From positions 1-20,916 of IMG/VR virus record IMGVR_UViG_3300010412_000460: a DNA stretch of 20,916 nucleotides; one strand, 5' to 3'. Position 1 is the stretch's first letter, and every line of letters begins with the position of its first letter. The DNA comes from a virus. The notes below the pieces were generated by a model. It was not told the DNA's origin and did not search any database. It worked only from the letters and a program-made list of their open reading frames with translations. Positions 307 through 12,533 of this stretch are shown here, piece after piece. The position numbers and the translations under genes are program-made.

Positions 307-1170
307 TTAAAAGATGTAACGAATAGTGTTCCACGGAATAATACTATTGTGGAGACGCGTGAATTCCTCTATAAAGGTTCTTTTCAAACCGCTTTTGTAT
401 CGGATGTTTAGACCACCGAATTCGGATTGTTTGTTTTCTTGCATGGATGGATTCCATAATAGCTCTTCTCCTGGTTTTTCCCATTCTACGTTGTAATTGT
501 GTTTGTTCTTGTTGTGAGTAAGGAATATGACTTCAGCTTTAACTACGGACTTGTATTGATCCGGTAGCTCATTTAACCGACAAAATAGTTCGGCGTATTC
601 TTCAAGCCATCCGTCATATACGACAACGGGGCTAAAGTTAACATGAACATCGTAACCTGCATCAATAAATTGAGGTATGGCTGATAGTCTTTCGGCAATA
701 GAAGAGGTGTTGGGTTCTAATATTTGCCGACGGTTCTCGGGCATCAGACTGAATCGGATCCGAATCTTTTGTTTAGGGTTGAACTCCAATAAATTCTTGT
801 TGACATATTTGGTTGCCAATGTTCCCATCGCTACTGGATGATCTACAAAGAATTGGAATATTCTTTTCCAATCATAATACTTTGCATGTAAAGCAAAATC
901 TTCGTTGCATGAAATGTCATAAGTGATGAATTTTTCATGCGTTTGATTAGGCTTTTCTACATCAGTAAACCAAGCGTGATTGTTGATTGTTGTCAGAATG
1001 TGTTCTATGTTGGCTGAATATTCTAAACCTGTGGGTTTATTTCTCTTCATGTAACAGTAGGTACAATCGTATAAACAACCGTAACCAAAGGAAGGAGCAA
1101 CAAAATCGCTACTCCTTCCTGATGTTCTAATTTCTGTTGTCTTTCTGTAGACGGGGATTACTAAATTCAT
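307..1170 (-). CDS. SPL-like (spore photoproduct lyase family) radical SAM enzyme
   Basis: The 287-aa product contains the radical SAM cluster motif GCLYDCTYCY, with the three 4Fe-4S ligands at C32, C36 and C39. The rest resembles spore photoproduct lyase as I recall the Bacillus protein: ISCNED around C88 lies where SPL has its FEGSCTSD H-atom-donor cysteine, RIRFSL (137-142) matches RFRFSI, and the segment from EPNTSS through AGYDVHVNFSPVVVYDGW (about 152-188) matches the SPL EPGTSP...AGY...P...GW block. Family chemistry is SAM cleavage to a 5'-deoxyadenosyl radical and repair of a thymine dimer. The real substrate here is unknown, because Bacteroidota do not sporulate. The ATG at 1170 overlaps the stop of the PAPS-reductase-like gene as ATGA, so the two are probably co-translated. 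The frame is open further upstream to 1428, but that stretch lies inside the neighbouring gene and was excluded. Confidence 0.85.
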   Translation of the reverse strand: MNLVIPVYRKTTEIRTSGRSSDFVAPSFGYGCLYDCTYCYMKRNKPTGLEYSANIEHILTTINNHAWFTDVEKPNQTHEKFITYDISCNEDFALHAKYYDWKRIFQFFVDHPVAMGTLATKYVNKNLLEFNPKQKIRIRFSLMPENRRQILEPNTSSIAERLSAIPQFIDAGYDVHVNFSPVVVYDGWLEEYAELFCRLNELPDQYKSVVKAEVIFLTHNKNKHNYNVEWEKPGEELLWNPSMQENKQSEFGGLNIRYKSGLKRTFIEEFTRLHNSIIPWNTIRYIF

Positions 1171-2030
1171 ATTCCACAAATTCCTGCTTTGCATCCCGGA
1201 CCGGTTCCACCAAAGAAATCCATTTGAATTCCTATATCGCGAATAGCTCCCATGGATATTTCTTTCTTGAAACGGTTTCCCATTATCTCTTCCATGATGT
1301 GAGCCCATTGGATAATGGCACGGGGTTCCGATCTTTCGTAATTTAACTTTAGTTGTTGAGGATCTTTCCAAAAACAGATTTGACAGCCTGTGTCTTCCGG
1401 GAAAGAAACTTGAGGGTTTTGATCCCAAAACTTATTTACCATTGGTCGCATTACTTTATCTTCAATGAGAGGATATGATAACGTGCGGTATTCAAAGTTT
1501 TTGATCCAGTTCTGTTGTCCTGTACCATAGTTGTTACAAGATATTGGGAAATCGATTGTTGCATCAAGGTCTTCAGCTCTTTCAGCTTCATCATATCGAA
1601 ATCCAATTCTCATATCTACAGGAAGTTCACAATGAAGATAGATGTATTCAAACATCGGAATAATCTTCATGTATTCTGTGCACCATCTCATTTTGAGATT
1701 TGGTATTGCACGTTTAACTTCCTGAATAAGATTTTCAAATCCTACTCCGCGCACCCATGTAATTTCACGACCTGTGAATTGTTCTAATTCCAACATTGTG
1801 ATAAGGGTTTGAGGATCTTCTGCCGTTGCTTTGAACTCGGGCCAATGTGGAGAAGTCTTTTGCAATTTGTCTTGGACTTGTTGCAATAGGGATTTATTCT
1901 TTCTCCAAAATGAACCGTTGGCATTGTGATCGTCAATACATACCACGGCAAACATTTCGATGTCTGCCGGGTAATGTACTGCCAAGTAAGATGATGTTTT
2001 ACCTCCAGATAAACTGTTGATACTTGTCAT
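1167..2030 (-). CDS. PAPS-reductase/DndC-like PP-loop ATPase-fold protein
   Basis: The 287-aa protein opens with the PP-loop motif SLSGGKTSS (residues 6-14), the nucleotide-binding signature of the PAPS reductase/ATP sulfurylase/DndC superfamily. A second family hallmark is RWCTEYMKIIPM at 115-126 (the RxCTxxxKxxP pattern). Cysteines recur at C117, C216/C219 (GCQIC) and C280/C285 (GCKAGIC near the C-terminus). They could bind an Fe-S cluster, as in DndC-type members. Family members transfer or reduce sulphur using an adenylated intermediate; phage copies are usually unassigned. It overlaps the SPL-like radical SAM gene by four bases, which suggests a two-enzyme pathway, perhaps nucleotide or nucleic-acid modification. 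That pathway is inference. A role in cysteine/sulphate assimilation is the alternative. Confidence 0.85.
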   Translation of the reverse strand: MTSINSLSGGKTSSYLAVHYPADIEMFAVVCIDDHNANGSFWRKNKSLLQQVQDKLQKTSPHWPEFKATAEDPQTLITMLELEQFTGREITWVRGVGFENLIQEVKRAIPNLKMRWCTEYMKIIPMFEYIYLHCELPVDMRIGFRYDEAERAEDLDATIDFPISCNNYGTGQQNWIKNFEYRTLSYPLIEDKVMRPMVNKFWDQNPQVSFPEDTGCQICFWKDPQQLKLNYERSEPRAIIQWAHIMEEIMGNRFKKEISMGAIRDIGIQMDFFGGTGPGCKAGICGI

Positions 2031-2033
2031 TTC

Positions 2034-2369
2034 TTACAAAATTAAATCTCTGATGATTACAGCCGTTTCGTAATCTTCTTCATCAAGAGCTTCCTCCAAT
2101 CTACTGCTGATAGCTTTAGGATCGTTAAGAACAAATTGAGAAGAATAGGTAAAGGCTTTACCTCCGCTATGGTGTCTTTTTTTGCATCCGCAATTAAGAT
2201 ACGGAGATACAGATGGCGTATTGTCAATATTCACCATTTGTTTTCCATCGGTTGAACAATAGAAAATGTCGGTGACAACATATTCATTTCCTTTAATTCT
2301 CGGTTGAGCAGGTCTTTCTCCTGTTGATAATGCGATTACAGAATCTCCAATTTTAAAGTTTTGATTCAT
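2034..2369 (-). CDS. Small protein with C-terminal UVR-like motif
   Basis: A 111-aa protein. Residues 5-50 (KIGDSVIAL... GNEYVVTDIFY) look like a small beta-barrel of the SH3/KOW type. The middle carries CGCKKRHHSGG (60-70), a possible metal or nucleic-acid-binding loop. The C-terminus (about 90-110), SRLEEALDEEDYETAVIIRD, matches the UVR/UvrB-UvrC interaction motif pattern (a short helix hairpin ending in A..IRD). UVR motifs mediate protein contacts in nucleotide excision repair and also occur in unrelated regulators. The start overlaps the PcfJ-like gene's stop as TAATG, and the stop lies three bases before the PAPS-reductase-like gene. Function is unknown. Confidence 0.8.
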   Translation of the reverse strand: MNQNFKIGDSVIALSTGERPAQPRIKGNEYVVTDIFYCSTDGKQMVNIDNTPSVSPYLNCGCKKRHHSGGKAFTYSSQFVLNDPKAISSRLEEALDEEDYETAVIIRDLIL

Positions 2370-3664
2370 TAGGCTGATTTTTTGAGTTTAGATCGGTTTA
2401 ACTTTTTGATAAGCTGAATGTTGCTGGTTACTAAAGATACGATTTTTTCGTTGTATTCAGATGGCTTATTGTTTGCTCCACGGGCCTGAACAATTTTCAA
2501 TTTTTTCAGATCCACTTCGATAGTTTCCACCGGTACATCATCGATAGTAGCATTGAGTAATAAAGACTCTGGCTTTTTGTAGTATTTATTCTCAAATACG
2601 CAATGATTCAACTTGCTTCCAATGTCGTAACATTCTTGTACGGACGTGATTGGAGTAATTGTGATGTTTTCCATTTGCAATACCAAATCGAAGAACTTCT
2701 TACGCATTTTGACATATTCTTCATTGTCTTCTGCAATCTTACTCATAAGTTCACGAAGCCTATTCTTTCTGTCAGATATGCGTTTCTTTTCCAAATATCG
2801 TTGATGTTCTGCATGTAGATCCGCAGGGCATACGTATTTTGGATTAAGAAGGTCTTTGTTGAAGTGATTTAGCAAATAGATGTAATCTTTCCAATCCATT
2901 ACATTTCGGACAATGTAGTTGTTCCTAATGCAAATTTTGATGGTATTCCAAATGTCACCTATTGAATTACTTGTAGCATAAAAATCGACCAAGTTATATT
3001 GCTTGGCTTTCATCAGCGTTTCAATTTTCGGATCTTTCAACAACCTGGACATTAGATGATGTGACGTAGTCTTCATCGTTTTTATCTCTACGAATCCATT
3101 ACGTTTCAAGATTGGAAGAATTGATTTGCGAGGGTAAACATTAACCGCATCGATGTTATATCTCATATGGTTCATGCTTTTTCGTAATTCCAATTCACTA
3201 TTGATATTGAAATTATCGTAGTAGTGGCTCATTATGTACACATTCTTAGTAAAGGAGGTTATCTTACCTTTTTCATCAATCCAATGTTGAAGGTTTTCAG
3301 ACCATTGGTAAGTTGCAGGTTGTCCTTTCTTTACCCATTTGTACATGTAAATAATTCGGTTTACTTGGTATCCTTTGAAGGTAGTCAGAATCTTAAAGAG
3401 TTCGATTGTTCTTTGGTACCCAAGTTTACCTACGTGCGGCTTACTTTTCTTTTTACAAGCAGGACAAACGATCCTATTACGATTGATTAAAGATGTCGCC
3501 TCTTTTTGAATATGTCCACACTCCAGGCAATAGTATTTGTTTTGATGAATAACCGAAAGGGGAGTAAACTGTTGCGCTCCCCAATCGATTTGTTTCTGTG
3601 TAATTGCCGGTAGTTGACTTTGAAGATTTACAATGTTGATGTCGTATTTACTTTTCGGTGTCAT
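2369..3664 (-). CDS. pcfJ: PcfJ-like protein
   Basis: A 431-aa protein. Two CxxC pairs near the N-terminus (CLEC at about 46-49, CPAC at about 68-71) form a probable zinc ribbon. The C-terminal third carries the PcfJ-domain signature: GSKLNHCV..NKYYKK, then LLLNATIDDVPVETIEVDL, then IVQARGANNKPSEYNEKI. PcfJ was named on the conjugative plasmid pCF10, and its homologues are common on phages and other mobile elements of Bacteroidota; the biochemical role is not established. It is joined to the PcfK-like gene upstream by a TAATG overlap, the usual PcfK-PcfJ arrangement. A basic, lysine-rich C-terminus and the zinc ribbon are consistent with nucleic-acid binding, but that is inference. Confidence 0.88.
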   Translation of the reverse strand: MTPKSKYDINIVNLQSQLPAITQKQIDWGAQQFTPLSVIHQNKYYCLECGHIQKEATSLINRNRIVCPACKKKSKPHVGKLGYQRTIELFKILTTFKGYQVNRIIYMYKWVKKGQPATYQWSENLQHWIDEKGKITSFTKNVYIMSHYYDNFNINSELELRKSMNHMRYNIDAVNVYPRKSILPILKRNGFVEIKTMKTTSHHLMSRLLKDPKIETLMKAKQYNLVDFYATSNSIGDIWNTIKICIRNNYIVRNVMDWKDYIYLLNHFNKDLLNPKYVCPADLHAEHQRYLEKKRISDRKNRLRELMSKIAEDNEEYVKMRKKFFDLVLQMENITITPITSVQECYDIGSKLNHCVFENKYYKKPESLLLNATIDDVPVETIEVDLKKLKIVQARGANNKPSEYNEKIVSLVTSNIQLIKKLNRSKLKKSA

Positions 3665-4101
3665 TAGAACATTGACATTTGATTTGGACTGATATCTGTT
3701 GTCGGTTTTTCAGTTGAAGTTTCTTTGTTTGCTTCATGCGGTGTCTTCTTTGCCGTAAGTTTGCGTTTTTCCTGTTCAATCAGTTCGCGAATAGCTTTTT
3801 CTTTGGCTTCAGCTTTCTCTTCTTCTGTAAGAACCACCGGTTCATTGATTACTACTCGACAATCAATTGGCTTTCCAACTTCAATTACATCTTCATCGTA
3901 GTAGTGTAAAGCCATACCGTAAATCTCATTAGGAGCGAAGCCGTTGCATCCTGATTTTTGTACGGTATTGAGAATGTAAGTAATGCAGTCATCTATATTC
4001 TTGTTTGGCTTAGAATACATTTGTGCAAATTGCTCGTTAGTTTGAGCAAGGTTGTCAAGATACTTTTTGATTACGTTTTTGAATCTCTCAGTTGATTTCA
4101 T
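3664..4101 (-). CDS. pcfK: PcfK-like protein
   Basis: A 145-aa protein beginning MKSTERFKNVIKKYLD and containing the strongly conserved PcfK stretch NIDDCITYILNTVQKSGCNGF followed by GMALHYYDEDVIEVGKPI. From memory this closely follows Bacteroides PcfK-like proteins. The last third is a charged, probably coiled helix (TEEEKAEAKEKAIRELIEQEKRKL) with a low-complexity Thr/Pro tail ending NQMSMF, which resembles the short C-terminal peptides that bind the sliding clamp. That last point is inference. It directly precedes the PcfJ-like gene with a TAATG overlap. The pair is known from plasmids and phages, but its molecular role is unresolved. Confidence 0.9.
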   Translation of the reverse strand: MKSTERFKNVIKKYLDNLAQTNEQFAQMYSKPNKNIDDCITYILNTVQKSGCNGFAPNEIYGMALHYYDEDVIEVGKPIDCRVVINEPVVLTEEEKAEAKEKAIRELIEQEKRKLTAKKTPHEANKETSTEKPTTDISPNQMSMF

Positions 4102-9800: not shown

Positions 9801-10111
9801 TCTGTAGCTTTTTTGATAGCCTTTTCTGCATTTTCTAATTCTTCCGCTACCAATACTTTTTCAGACATTACGGCATGGTATAAATCTCGTAATGCTTCAA
9901 GTAAATCGGGAGCAGCAGCTATTAAATGAGCGTTAGCTGTACATTCTTCAGCTGTCATTGATTTAAAACCGGTGTATACAGATGCCAAGCATTTGCGTTT
10001 ACCTTCTGTACCAAACATAATTAAGTAGCCGGGACCCGAATCAACATCGGATCCCCAACTACTATTTTTTGCAAGGTGCCAAGTTTGCGTTGTTCCTTTG
10101 AATTCGTTCAT
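9785..10111 (-). CDS. Small phage protein of the 'ANAHLIAAAPDLLEAL' type
   Basis: A 108-aa protein with a beta-rich first half (TWHLAKNSSWGSDVDSGPGYLIM) and the motif ANAHLIAAAPDLLEALRDL at about 60-78, which recurs in many small phage proteins across hosts as ANAxLIAAAPDLLEAL; its function is unknown. The C-terminal half is a charged helix ending ATEWHKT. The start overlaps the stop of the MoxR-type gene as TAATG. The motif is good evidence for a phage origin. Confidence 0.85.
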   Translation of the reverse strand: MNEFKGTTQTWHLAKNSSWGSDVDSGPGYLIMFGTEGKRKCLASVYTGFKSMTAEECTANAHLIAAAPDLLEALRDLYHAVMSEKVLVAEELENAEKAIKKATEWHKT

Positions 10112-11340
10112 TACTCCAAGATGTTTTGAACTACCGCATCAGATAGCAATAACGCGTTGTACTTTCCATTCATGTTGGTCAGTTTTCTTCCCAATACAAA
10201 CTTTAAGTCTGTTCCAAGGCATGTAGACAAGATGAATTCTTCCAATCTTTTGATCAGAGATTCATTGATTTGTTCACCGGGAACATTGAACTGAAGATGA
10301 TTGATCAAACGTGTTGTCAATACATAAGCAATGTCAGCTCGGTAACTTGTTCCGGATTTTACAATCTTGTTGATTTCCTTTTCGATTTTGTTGAATGGAG
10401 TATCAACATTCAACATTTCTTCTGGAGTAATCAATTCATCCATCTTGTTATGAATGAATGCGGTAAACATGGTTGTGACTTCAGTTCCTAATGAACCTTC
10501 CCCGAGAAGTTGGATCAGTTCCAAGTCTTTGTCGAAGTTTTCAATACTACTGATAGAATTGAAGAACAGTGTAATGCTTCGAGCATTGACTTCGGGTGTT
10601 TCAGGCTTAACGATTTCTTTATTCATCAGGACAAAGTTGATACATCGGCCATCAATGTTATTCTGAACAGCCCATTCAGCCCAAATTTCAGCGTTCCATG
10701 CAAGATTTACATTCAAGTATCTTGATTTCTGTGCAGGATCCTGGTCGGTTACATTGTACATACCGTCATCGGGATTAGATGACAATACGATGGTCCATCC
10801 TTCCGGTAACGCCCAAGAAGCATAACGTTGATTCAGGATAAGTTCCATGACCGCTTGAGTAAATCTTTGAGATGCTCGCGTGTAGTCATCCAGAATCAAC
10901 ATACCCGGACCGGTTTTACCCGATACCCATTCAGGAATAATGTAACTCATTTTGGAATCACCTGTGTTTACCCATCCGGCACTCATGTAACTTGTTAGAG
11001 CTTTCTCTTTAACCCAAGTTTCTTTTTTGGTTTTGCAACCTTTCTCGTCTGTTGCCACTTTAACCATACGATATTCTTCAGTAGGAATACCGATCAAATC
11101 TCCAATTTCTTGAAGAGTGGACAAGTTCAAATACACGATGTTCTCTTTCTTGAACCCAAGTTCAATAGCACTTTGTGTAATTGTGCTTGTTTTGCCAAGA
11201 CCAGCTTGACCGATTACGTTCAAAGCCAAAGGAGTTTGACCTTTAGATTGAAGCATTTTGTTGGTGTTTACGATATGAGTAATGATTCTCTTAAGTTCTT
11301 TTACGTTGATTTCTGATTGAATAGATGCTTGCTTTTTCAT
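10111..11340 (-). CDS. MoxR-type AAA+ ATPase
   Basis: A 409-aa protein, counted from the ATG at 11340. Walker A is GQAGLGKT (44-51), Walker B is MLILDD (147-152), sensor 1 is SSNP (187-190), and a candidate arginine finger is at R207 (QKSRYLN). The ATPase core is followed by a helical C-terminal region. MoxR ATPases act as chaperone-like motors and are typically encoded beside a VWA-domain partner, as here. A TTG at 11352 would overlap the upstream stop as TTGA and add four residues; I prefer the ATG eight bases after that stop. It lies within the replication block, so remodelling of a replication or virion complex is a reasonable guess, but the target is unknown. Confidence 0.87.
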   Translation of the reverse strand: MKKQASIQSEINVKELKRIITHIVNTNKMLQSKGQTPLALNVIGQAGLGKTSTITQSAIELGFKKENIVYLNLSTLQEIGDLIGIPTEEYRMVKVATDEKGCKTKKETWVKEKALTSYMSAGWVNTGDSKMSYIIPEWVSGKTGPGMLILDDYTRASQRFTQAVMELILNQRYASWALPEGWTIVLSSNPDDGMYNVTDQDPAQKSRYLNVNLAWNAEIWAEWAVQNNIDGRCINFVLMNKEIVKPETPEVNARSITLFFNSISSIENFDKDLELIQLLGEGSLGTEVTTMFTAFIHNKMDELITPEEMLNVDTPFNKIEKEINKIVKSGTSYRADIAYVLTTRLINHLQFNVPGEQINESLIKRLEEFILSTCLGTDLKFVLGRKLTNMNGKYNALLLSDAVVQNILE

Positions 11341-11348
11341 TTTTAAGT

Positions 11349-12533
11349 TCAATTAAGTTTTACACATTTACCGGGTAGCTGTTCATTGATATCATGTTTA
11401 CTTCCATGTACCCAAAGAATATACCCTCTTGCATTTTTTGGAATCGATGCTTCACCATCAGTTAGATAGATCAAGCACGAATACTTTTTGAAATGTTGAT
11501 TGAAGTAATCAATTGTTGGTTGGAACGATGTTCCTCCTCTTCCTGTAACTTCAATTGGTTGACGAGGATTGTACTTTATTTTGCCGTGAATTTGAGTATC
11601 AACAAATAAGATGTCGATATCATGTCCGGTTTTGTGCATATGAGTTAACTCTTTTGCAAATTCAAGTAGATCCTCGTCTTCTACTGATGCCGATGTATCA
11701 ATAGCGACAAGTATATGAGAATAGTAATTTTCTCGGGAACCCGGCATATCTGGAAATCTGCGACTTTTCTTCCTTCGGGTATCCTCTACCCAAGTTTTAG
11801 TAGAAACTCCCACAAATCGTCTGAGATAAGCTCTCCAATTGAATTTTGGTGGTTCAATCACGTTGAATTGTTCAATCAAACTTTTGATATGATCCGGAAT
11901 ACTACCAGGATTTGATTTTTCTAACTGTCGTACTACATTGGTAAGGAGTTGTTCTGTGTTCTTACCGACCATTTTCTTGACAGCATCGGAAGCCTGTTGC
12001 ACTTCTTCCCATTCATGTTTTGGGATTTGTATAGGTCTCCCGCTGGAATCTGTAGTTTCACTTTTACCCTCTTGCATAGCTTGGAGAATGTTGTTGAGCG
12101 TTTCATCATCTCCATTCTCTTTGTTTTCCATGAGCTTTTTGTAATACCAATTGGTATCTTGCCCGGGCTTCAAGTCTTTGTACTTATCCCATGTGCATCC
12201 TCCTGGAGGTAGCATGTCGGCAGGAATAGTTTGATTGATGTAAATATCCATTGCCTGATTTGCAATATCGTGATCGTGTAAGTGATCATAGTCAGTCAAA
12301 TGGAAATTAATGATATGACCTAATTCGTGAATGAGTAAGCCTTGCTTTTGTTTATCATTCAGAGTAGCAAAGAAATCGGAATTCACAATTAACTTATAAG
12401 TTAACTGATTCAATCCGACGCATGCCGTTTGGGTCCTGTTATTGTTTACTTCTTTTTGTAAACTCAATAGAATGGATCCGTAGAATGGATTATCGTAAAT
12501 GAGTTCTTTTGAAACTTTAAGGATTTCCTTCAT
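11349..12533 (-). CDS. VWA-domain protein with N-terminal metallopeptidase-like domain
   Basis: A 394-aa protein. The N-terminal domain carries the zinc-protease motif HELGH (69-73). The C-terminal domain is a VWA fold with an intact MIDAS: DTSAS (D279, S281, S283), GGTSF (T335) and LTDGE (D359). The two-domain order matches the bacterial 'putative metallopeptidase plus VWA-like' proteins that accompany MoxR ATPases. The linker (about 135-260) is charged and includes RRKKSRRF (253-260). It overlaps the upstream 130-aa gene by 17 bases and is followed by its MoxR partner after eight bases. MIDAS proteins bind a ligand through Mg2+, and the AAA+ partner usually loads or remodels that complex. 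Whether the HELGH site is active cannot be told. Confidence 0.87.
   Translation of the reverse strand: MKEILKVSKELIYDNPFYGSILLSLQKEVNNNRTQTACVGLNQLTYKLIVNSDFFATLNDKQKQGLLIHELGHIINFHLTDYDHLHDHDIANQAMDIYINQTIPADMLPPGGCTWDKYKDLKPGQDTNWYYKKLMENKENGDDETLNNILQAMQEGKSETTDSSGRPIQIPKHEWEEVQQASDAVKKMVGKNTEQLLTNVVRQLEKSNPGSIPDHIKSLIEQFNVIEPPKFNWRAYLRRFVGVSTKTWVEDTRRKKSRRFPDMPGSRENYYSHILVAIDTSASVEDEDLLEFAKELTHMHKTGHDIDILFVDTQIHGKIKYNPRQPIEVTGRGGTSFQPTIDYFNQHFKKYSCLIYLTDGEASIPKNARGYILWVHGSKHDINEQLPGKCVKLN

Follow-up and report, generated by a model that had tools for sequence, protein, structure and literature searches.

Spore photoproduct lyase (SPL), which undoes a UV lesion in the spores of bacteria, is known as the endospore repair enzyme. 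In the phage DNA analyzed here, the gene for an SPL-type radical SAM protein overlaps that for a PP-loop protein, and the locus raises the question of whether the two enzymes form one system, as a preliminary description had proposed, or are separate tools that lie side by side.

Two overlapping genes in a tailed-phage fragment

The window (the whole stretch of DNA that was analyzed; 20,916 bp, virus record IMGVR_UViG_3300010412_000460) represents part of a tailed-phage genome. Nearly all of its coding sequence lies on the minus strand, where replication genes (a helicase, DnaB, a RecA-like ATPase, a Toprim primase, an exonuclease and a DNA polymerase) are accompanied by an AAA/VWA pair, PcfK, PcfJ, a gene for a 111-aa protein and the PP-loop and SPL-type genes. 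The ORF beside the SPL-type gene at the window end encodes a hydrophobic N-terminus and is incomplete, running past the end. Judging by the relatives of the SPL-type protein, the phage host probably belongs to the Bacteroidota and is non-sporulating, so that the non-sporulating host presumed in the preliminary description is plausible. The two genes and their junction are as follows:

307..1170, minus strand: SPL-type radical SAM protein, 287 aa (ATG at 1170, stop at 307-309; PF20903, TIGR03886 and SPL fold)
1167..2030, minus strand: PP-loop (SspD/DndC/CysH-type) protein, 287 aa (phrog_424, SspD and PP-loop fold)
1167..1170, minus strand: ATGA stop/start overlap of the PP-loop and SPL-type genes (from the sequence)

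Both ORFs were confirmed where they had been described, as was their overlap, in which the stop codon of the PP-loop gene (TGA, 1167-1169) lies over the start codon of the SPL-type gene (ATG, 1168-1170). A 373-aa form of the SPL-type ORF, starting at a TTG codon, is a mechanical extension; homology starts at the ATG at 1170, which gives the 287-aa protein.

The radical SAM protein is a clear relative of SPL

The family assignments made in the preliminary description, SPL-like for one protein and PP-loop for the other, are supported by matches far beyond chance. The SPL-type protein is a clear SPL relative: it matched the Pfam SPL family (PF20903) at 5.9e-25, with 88.3 bits against a curated cut-off of 27, and TIGR03886 at 7.3e-94, with positions 62-346 of the 346 in the profile aligned and the first 61 unmatched. 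The TIGR03886 score of 314.8 bits is below the curated equivalog cut-off of 437.55, which marks the protein as a shortened relative and not an equivalog; it is likewise not an equivalog of TIGR04070, the Bacillus-type SPL (81.4 bits against a curated cut-off of 400, E 6e-23). A profile search of solved structures with the protein matched SPL alone (1.6e-24). Its AlphaFold2 model (pLDDT 94) resembled solved SPL with TM scores of 0.86-0.88 in Foldseek and a Z of 30.9 in VIA (rmsd 2.1 over 276 aligned residues), and other radical SAM folds reached a Z of 14.7 at most. Identity to the tested SPLs is only about 20%. The residues on which a catalytic assignment depends were located by alignment:

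1054..1077, minus strand: CxxxCxYC radical SAM motif, residues 32-39 (C32, C36, C39; alignments, with counts over 142 relatives)
907..909, minus strand: Cys88, hydrogen-donor equivalent (C141 in B. subtilis, C140 in G. thermodenitrificans; alignment to 4FHC, 142 relatives)

The CxxxCxxC cluster that had been noted earlier is thus kept, in the form CxxxCxYC, and C88, which had been placed at the position of the SPL hydrogen donor, does align with the catalytic cysteine of both characterized enzymes; its equivalent is a cysteine in 140 of 142 relatives. Y38, inside the motif, aligns with Y97 of B. subtilis SPL, and the residue that follows the motif, Y40, aligns with Y99; they are kept in 141/142 and 140/142 relatives, respectively. 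Mutating C141, Y97 or Y99 in the B. subtilis enzyme alters catalysis (PMC3742179). With SplB (PF20903/TIGR04070; G. thermodenitrificans SPL, 4FHC) the window protein shares the fold, the CxxxCxYC-Y motif, the hydrogen-donor cysteine, the relay tyrosines and an RFS..EP.TS..R..AGY core. Because profile, fold and catalytic residues match those of solved and tested SPL, the window enzyme very probably runs the SPL chemistry predicted for it.

The phage proteins differ from Bacillus-type SplB in being phage-borne, in missing about 60 N-terminal residues and in the absence of a link to sporulation. They also carry Glu or Gln at the hairpin position aligned with R304 of the G. thermodenitrificans enzyme, which we take to be the lesion-hairpin arginine (lesion-contact residues of SPL other than C140, Y96 and Y98 are likewise presumed). 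The lesion may differ because of the absent N-terminal stretch, the sub-cut-off TIGR03886 score and the replacement of R304. A substrate other than spore photoproduct, acted on by the SPL-type enzyme alone, could be another kind of photodimer, or thymine that is hypermodified in the DNA of phage or host; such a thymine-derived substrate would suit these departures and also Ser249, which is invariant in the relatives and replaces a glycine. TIGR03886, a separate NCBI family, moreover far outscores the true-SPL model TIGR04070 (7e-94 vs 6e-23), and odd bases are numerous in phages. However, the catalytic cysteine and both relay tyrosines are conserved, the SPL fold is matched across 276 residues, and base-hypermodification genes were not seen in the SPL neighborhood clusters. 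Another substrate is consequently considered rather unlikely: the evidence for it, one hairpin residue and an absent N-terminal stretch, is thin because the cluster cysteines, the hydrogen-donor cysteine and the relay tyrosines are all kept. The earlier expectation that the substrate is probably not spore photoproduct is therefore not supported, all the more since non-spore-formers have SPL homologues, which are predicted to be SOS-regulated (PMC3323433).

Shortened SPLs are widespread in phages

At least 577 relatives of the SPL-type protein were found on viral contigs in a degenerate scan. Relatives in genomes are mostly from Bacteroidota, with some from Rickettsiales and one from an Actinomycetota bin, and it is the TIGR03886 proteins of non-spore-formers (Bacteroidota, Rickettsiales) that provide the best profile match of the window protein. 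The bacterial TIGR03886-type relatives are mostly 45-53% identical. The phage SPLs differ from that family in forming their own clade, in scoring under its cut-off and in leaving its 61 N-terminal profile positions unmatched. In a 72-row tree the phage SPLs fell on one strongly supported side (100/98), which included one Kordia bin, and the other bacterial sequences stood apart. Among phage pairs the median dN/dS was 0.16, and the gene is therefore kept by purifying selection. The Rickettsia relatives L222, L224 and L225 appear shortened or fragmented, unlike the phage and Bacteroidota copies.

Genes for DnaB helicase, a DNA helicase, DNA polymerase and Sak4 lie near the phage SPL gene. A uracil-DNA-glycosylase-like gene was present in 22/100 SPL loci and 0/82 PP-loop loci, a comparison biased by the choice of the query from SPL loci; in whole records the counts were 8/29 and 0/26 (p 0.005, ignoring phylogeny). 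This gene of the uracil-DNA-glycosylase superfamily belongs to phrog_12143 (function unknown) and lies about 2 kb downstream of the phage SPL gene, as at 5877-6731 of contig L003. No photolyase was found beside SPL in 29 records. SplB-like enzymes have been reported to be located with repair genes (PMC3765255); among the conserved neighbors of the bacterial SPLs analyzed here a nameable repair gene was not seen, and in Spirosoma the neighbor clusters track genus-level synteny. No description of a phage-encoded SPL was found in the literature searched, of which coverage was incomplete.

The PP-loop protein resembles SspD more than CysH

The model of the PP-loop protein (pLDDT 89) has a PP-loop fold, and its nearest fold neighbors are PAPS/APS reductases (Z 10-11), followed by NcsA, GMP synthetase and LarE. 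The gene is under purifying selection in the relatives (median dN/dS 0.06). The following conserved elements were identified:

1992..2009, minus strand: PP-loop nucleotide-binding motif SGGKTS, residues 8-13 (near-invariant in 80 relatives)
1680..1682, minus strand: Cys117 of RWCT..MK, predicted Fe-S ligand (80/80 relatives)
1374..1385, minus strand: Cys216-x-x-Cys219, predicted Fe-S ligands (each 80/80 relatives)
1176..1193, minus strand: C-terminal Cys280-x4-Cys285, predicted sulfur-carrying or redox pair (C280 in 78/80 and C285 in 80/80 relatives)

DndC is a 4Fe-4S protein in which three cysteines hold the cluster and a separate cysteine dyad is present (PMC10853773). By analogy, C117, C216 and C219 are predicted to be cluster ligands and the tail bearing C280 and C285 is predicted to be a sulfur carrier; the model of this tail (residues 276-287) is of low confidence or flexible (pLDDT <50). 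The preliminary description spoke of DndC-like cysteine pairs, which is fair as a description (RWCT, CxxC, CxxxxC), but the match to DndC itself is marginal (0.0013 in PADLOC) and falls below the NCBIfam cut-off (12 bits against 290.4), and SspD, a protein of single-strand DNA phosphorothioation, is the better match. The SspD profile matched 28/28 scanned members (best 1.9e-19; window protein 7.1e-11), its coverage being partial and its curated cut-off unstated. With SspD and DndC the window protein shares the PP-loop, the RxCT..MK motif and the conserved cysteines, and its length is near that of SspD (a 277-position profile); it differs in that no cysteine desulfurase is phage-encoded. A sequence search of the family against solved structures gave chance-level matches only, and Pfam matches to PanZ and globin were short and sub-threshold.

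The protein matched phrog_424 at 2.3e-19, a phage family named for PAPS reductase, and an assimilatory PAPS reductase (CysH) would supply reduced sulfur during infection. Phage cysH has been widely reported (PMC9301287), and the superfamily fold is shared (Z about 11). However, the window protein had no match to Pfam PAPS_reduct (PF01507), as was true of all but one of the 28 members, and that one reached an E of only 0.0098, outside the usual thresholds, whereas SspD was matched by all of them. The C-terminal tail is GCKAGICGI in the window and GCQAGFCTD or the like in relatives, so that a CxxxxC pair stands in place of the ECGLH-type motif, which we take to be the catalytic cysteine motif of CysH. 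Judged by its sequence, the PP-loop protein is not a canonical CysH, and a role in assimilatory sulfate reduction is considered quite unlikely.

The genomic context of the PP-loop gene points instead to nucleic acid. A DNA methyltransferase gene of four sampled families was found in 41/82 PP-loop loci and in none of the SPL loci, a difference biased by the choice of queries from PP-loop loci; methyltransferases are, besides, frequent in phages. A fusion of a ParB-like domain with a DNA methyltransferase (phrog_498) is encoded near the PP-loop gene at 7386-8531 of L074 and in 23 further loci. A cysteine desulfurase (PF00266) was present in 0/29 records, with a working control, although many of these records are fragmentary and a host enzyme could substitute; DUF4007 (SspB) also matched 0/29 records, and had no match in the control genomes either.

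Thiolation of tRNA, as by PP-loop enzymes of the NcsA/TtuA/TtcA type, would agree with the presence of NcsA and TtuA among the fold neighbors (Z 8.6-9.6), and the three invariant cysteines would fit a 3-Cys [4Fe-4S] cluster. This substrate is decidedly unlikely, given that the surrounding genes encode DNA methyltransferases, ParB-methyltransferases and recombination functions, that the window has no tRNA gene and that profile matches favor SspD and DndC. Given its genomic context and a profile match that is both weak and partial, the likeliest assignment of the PP-loop protein is a putative sulfurtransferase acting on nucleic acid, with DNA as the best guess, and using a host desulfurase. The sulfur-related role in nucleic acid modification proposed earlier is therefore plausible for the PP-loop gene alone (SspD-like, with DNA methyltransferases nearby), but not jointly with SPL.

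The two genes are nearly always apart

The preliminary description envisaged a single pathway in which both enzymes add or remove a modification derived from sulfur or from radical chemistry, on phage DNA or on tRNA and possibly against restriction, and a fixed co-occurrence of the genes elsewhere was sought in a neighborhood survey. Within flanks of up to 6 kb the genes were found together only in the window, in L019, where they are adjacent, and in L026, where they are 3 kb apart. L019 is a syntenic sister phage with the same PP-loop/SPL order and a spacing of about 100 bp. In whole SPL records the PP-loop gene occurred in 1/19 and 1/28 contigs, both times L019; the other 27 of the 28 long contigs, 27-183 kb in length, were without it. 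Beyond L019 and the preselected L026, the other gene was present in 0/27 SPL records and 0/26 PP-loop records, although many of the searched records are fragments in which absence of the partner is not proof.

In the SPL tree the window, L019 and L165 group together and L026 is placed elsewhere. No PP-loop gene was found within 4.2 kb upstream in L165, the nearest SPL sibling, and the adjacency in the window and L019 therefore looks local to one phage lineage. Between these two phages the PP-loop proteins are 84% identical, the SPLs 63% and other proteins 33-69%, which points to unequal histories for the two genes. The 84% identity (window 1167-2030, L019 6001-6861) may reflect strong constraint or recent exchange. 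The neighborhoods also differ, with a DNA glycosylase near SPL and DNA methyltransferases near the PP-loop gene.

A joint SPL and PP-loop cassette is not supported, and the idea largely fails the co-occurrence check that the preliminary description had set for it. The ATGA overlap, the SspD-like character of the PP-loop protein, the order kept in two related phages and the co-occurrence in a third contig would all suit a single pathway, and the last two leave some room for a functional link, but against the scarcity of pairing, the differing neighborhoods and the unequal identities a shared pathway is highly improbable. Both genes are widespread in viruses yet nearly always apart, which makes them look like independent tools rather than a single new system.

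Proposed activities and their implications

The best joint reading, which we hold to be reasonably probable, is that the SPL-type enzyme carries out light-independent repair of UV lesions and that the PP-loop enzyme independently carries out thiolation, both activities being predicted ones. What the analysis shows directly is the families, folds, conserved residues, neighborhoods and selection; the chemistry, the exact lesion, the sulfur acceptor and the host are predictions. The genes would be separate accessory functions, adjacent by chance and translationally coupled. The SPL-type enzyme would be a DNA repair lyase that needs no light. Its [4Fe-4S] cluster, held by C32, C36 and C39, would cleave SAM, and the resulting 5'-deoxyadenosyl radical would abstract hydrogen from a thymine dimer with a methylene bridge, either spore photoproduct or something closely related to it. 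The dimer would then split, C88 would give a hydrogen atom back, and Y40 would carry the radical back, regenerating SAM. In this way the enzyme would repair UV-damaged phage DNA, whether incoming or in replication. The PP-loop enzyme would use ATP to activate a substrate oxygen, after which sulfur would be inserted via the enzyme cysteines; the acceptor would most likely be DNA and the sulfur would come from a host cysteine desulfurase.

The locus is thus two enzymes of ordinary kinds side by side, and their combination does not constitute a new system. Of more lasting value is the broad clade of phage SPLs that are shortened yet apparently intact. The hundreds of phage contigs with intact SPL catalytic residues, under purifying selection, suggest that repair of a thymine dimer is selected for beyond spores, with packaged viral DNA as a plausible setting. 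This mostly-phage clade could, tentatively, represent a virus-specific, light-independent repair of capsid-DNA lesions that acts on cell entry, a possibility that we regard as somewhat doubtful; spore photoproduct or a related dimer would arise in the dense, poorly hydrated packaged DNA, and the logic of spore-DNA repair would extend to virions. The resemblance of this phage 'PAPS reductase' family to SspD, and not to CysH, calls for caution in claims about viral sulfur metabolism.

Other features of the window

At 2034-2369 a match to the UVR motif was slightly under its cut-off. Genes for PcfJ and PcfK-like proteins, known from plasmids, lie at 2369-4101 of this phage sequence. The span 10111-12533 encodes a 413-aa ATPase-like protein, which has no Pfam match, and next to it a DUF2201 metallopeptidase/VWA protein; the order of the two genes is kept in L019, and the arrangement resembles a phage-borne pair of the MoxR-VWA type.
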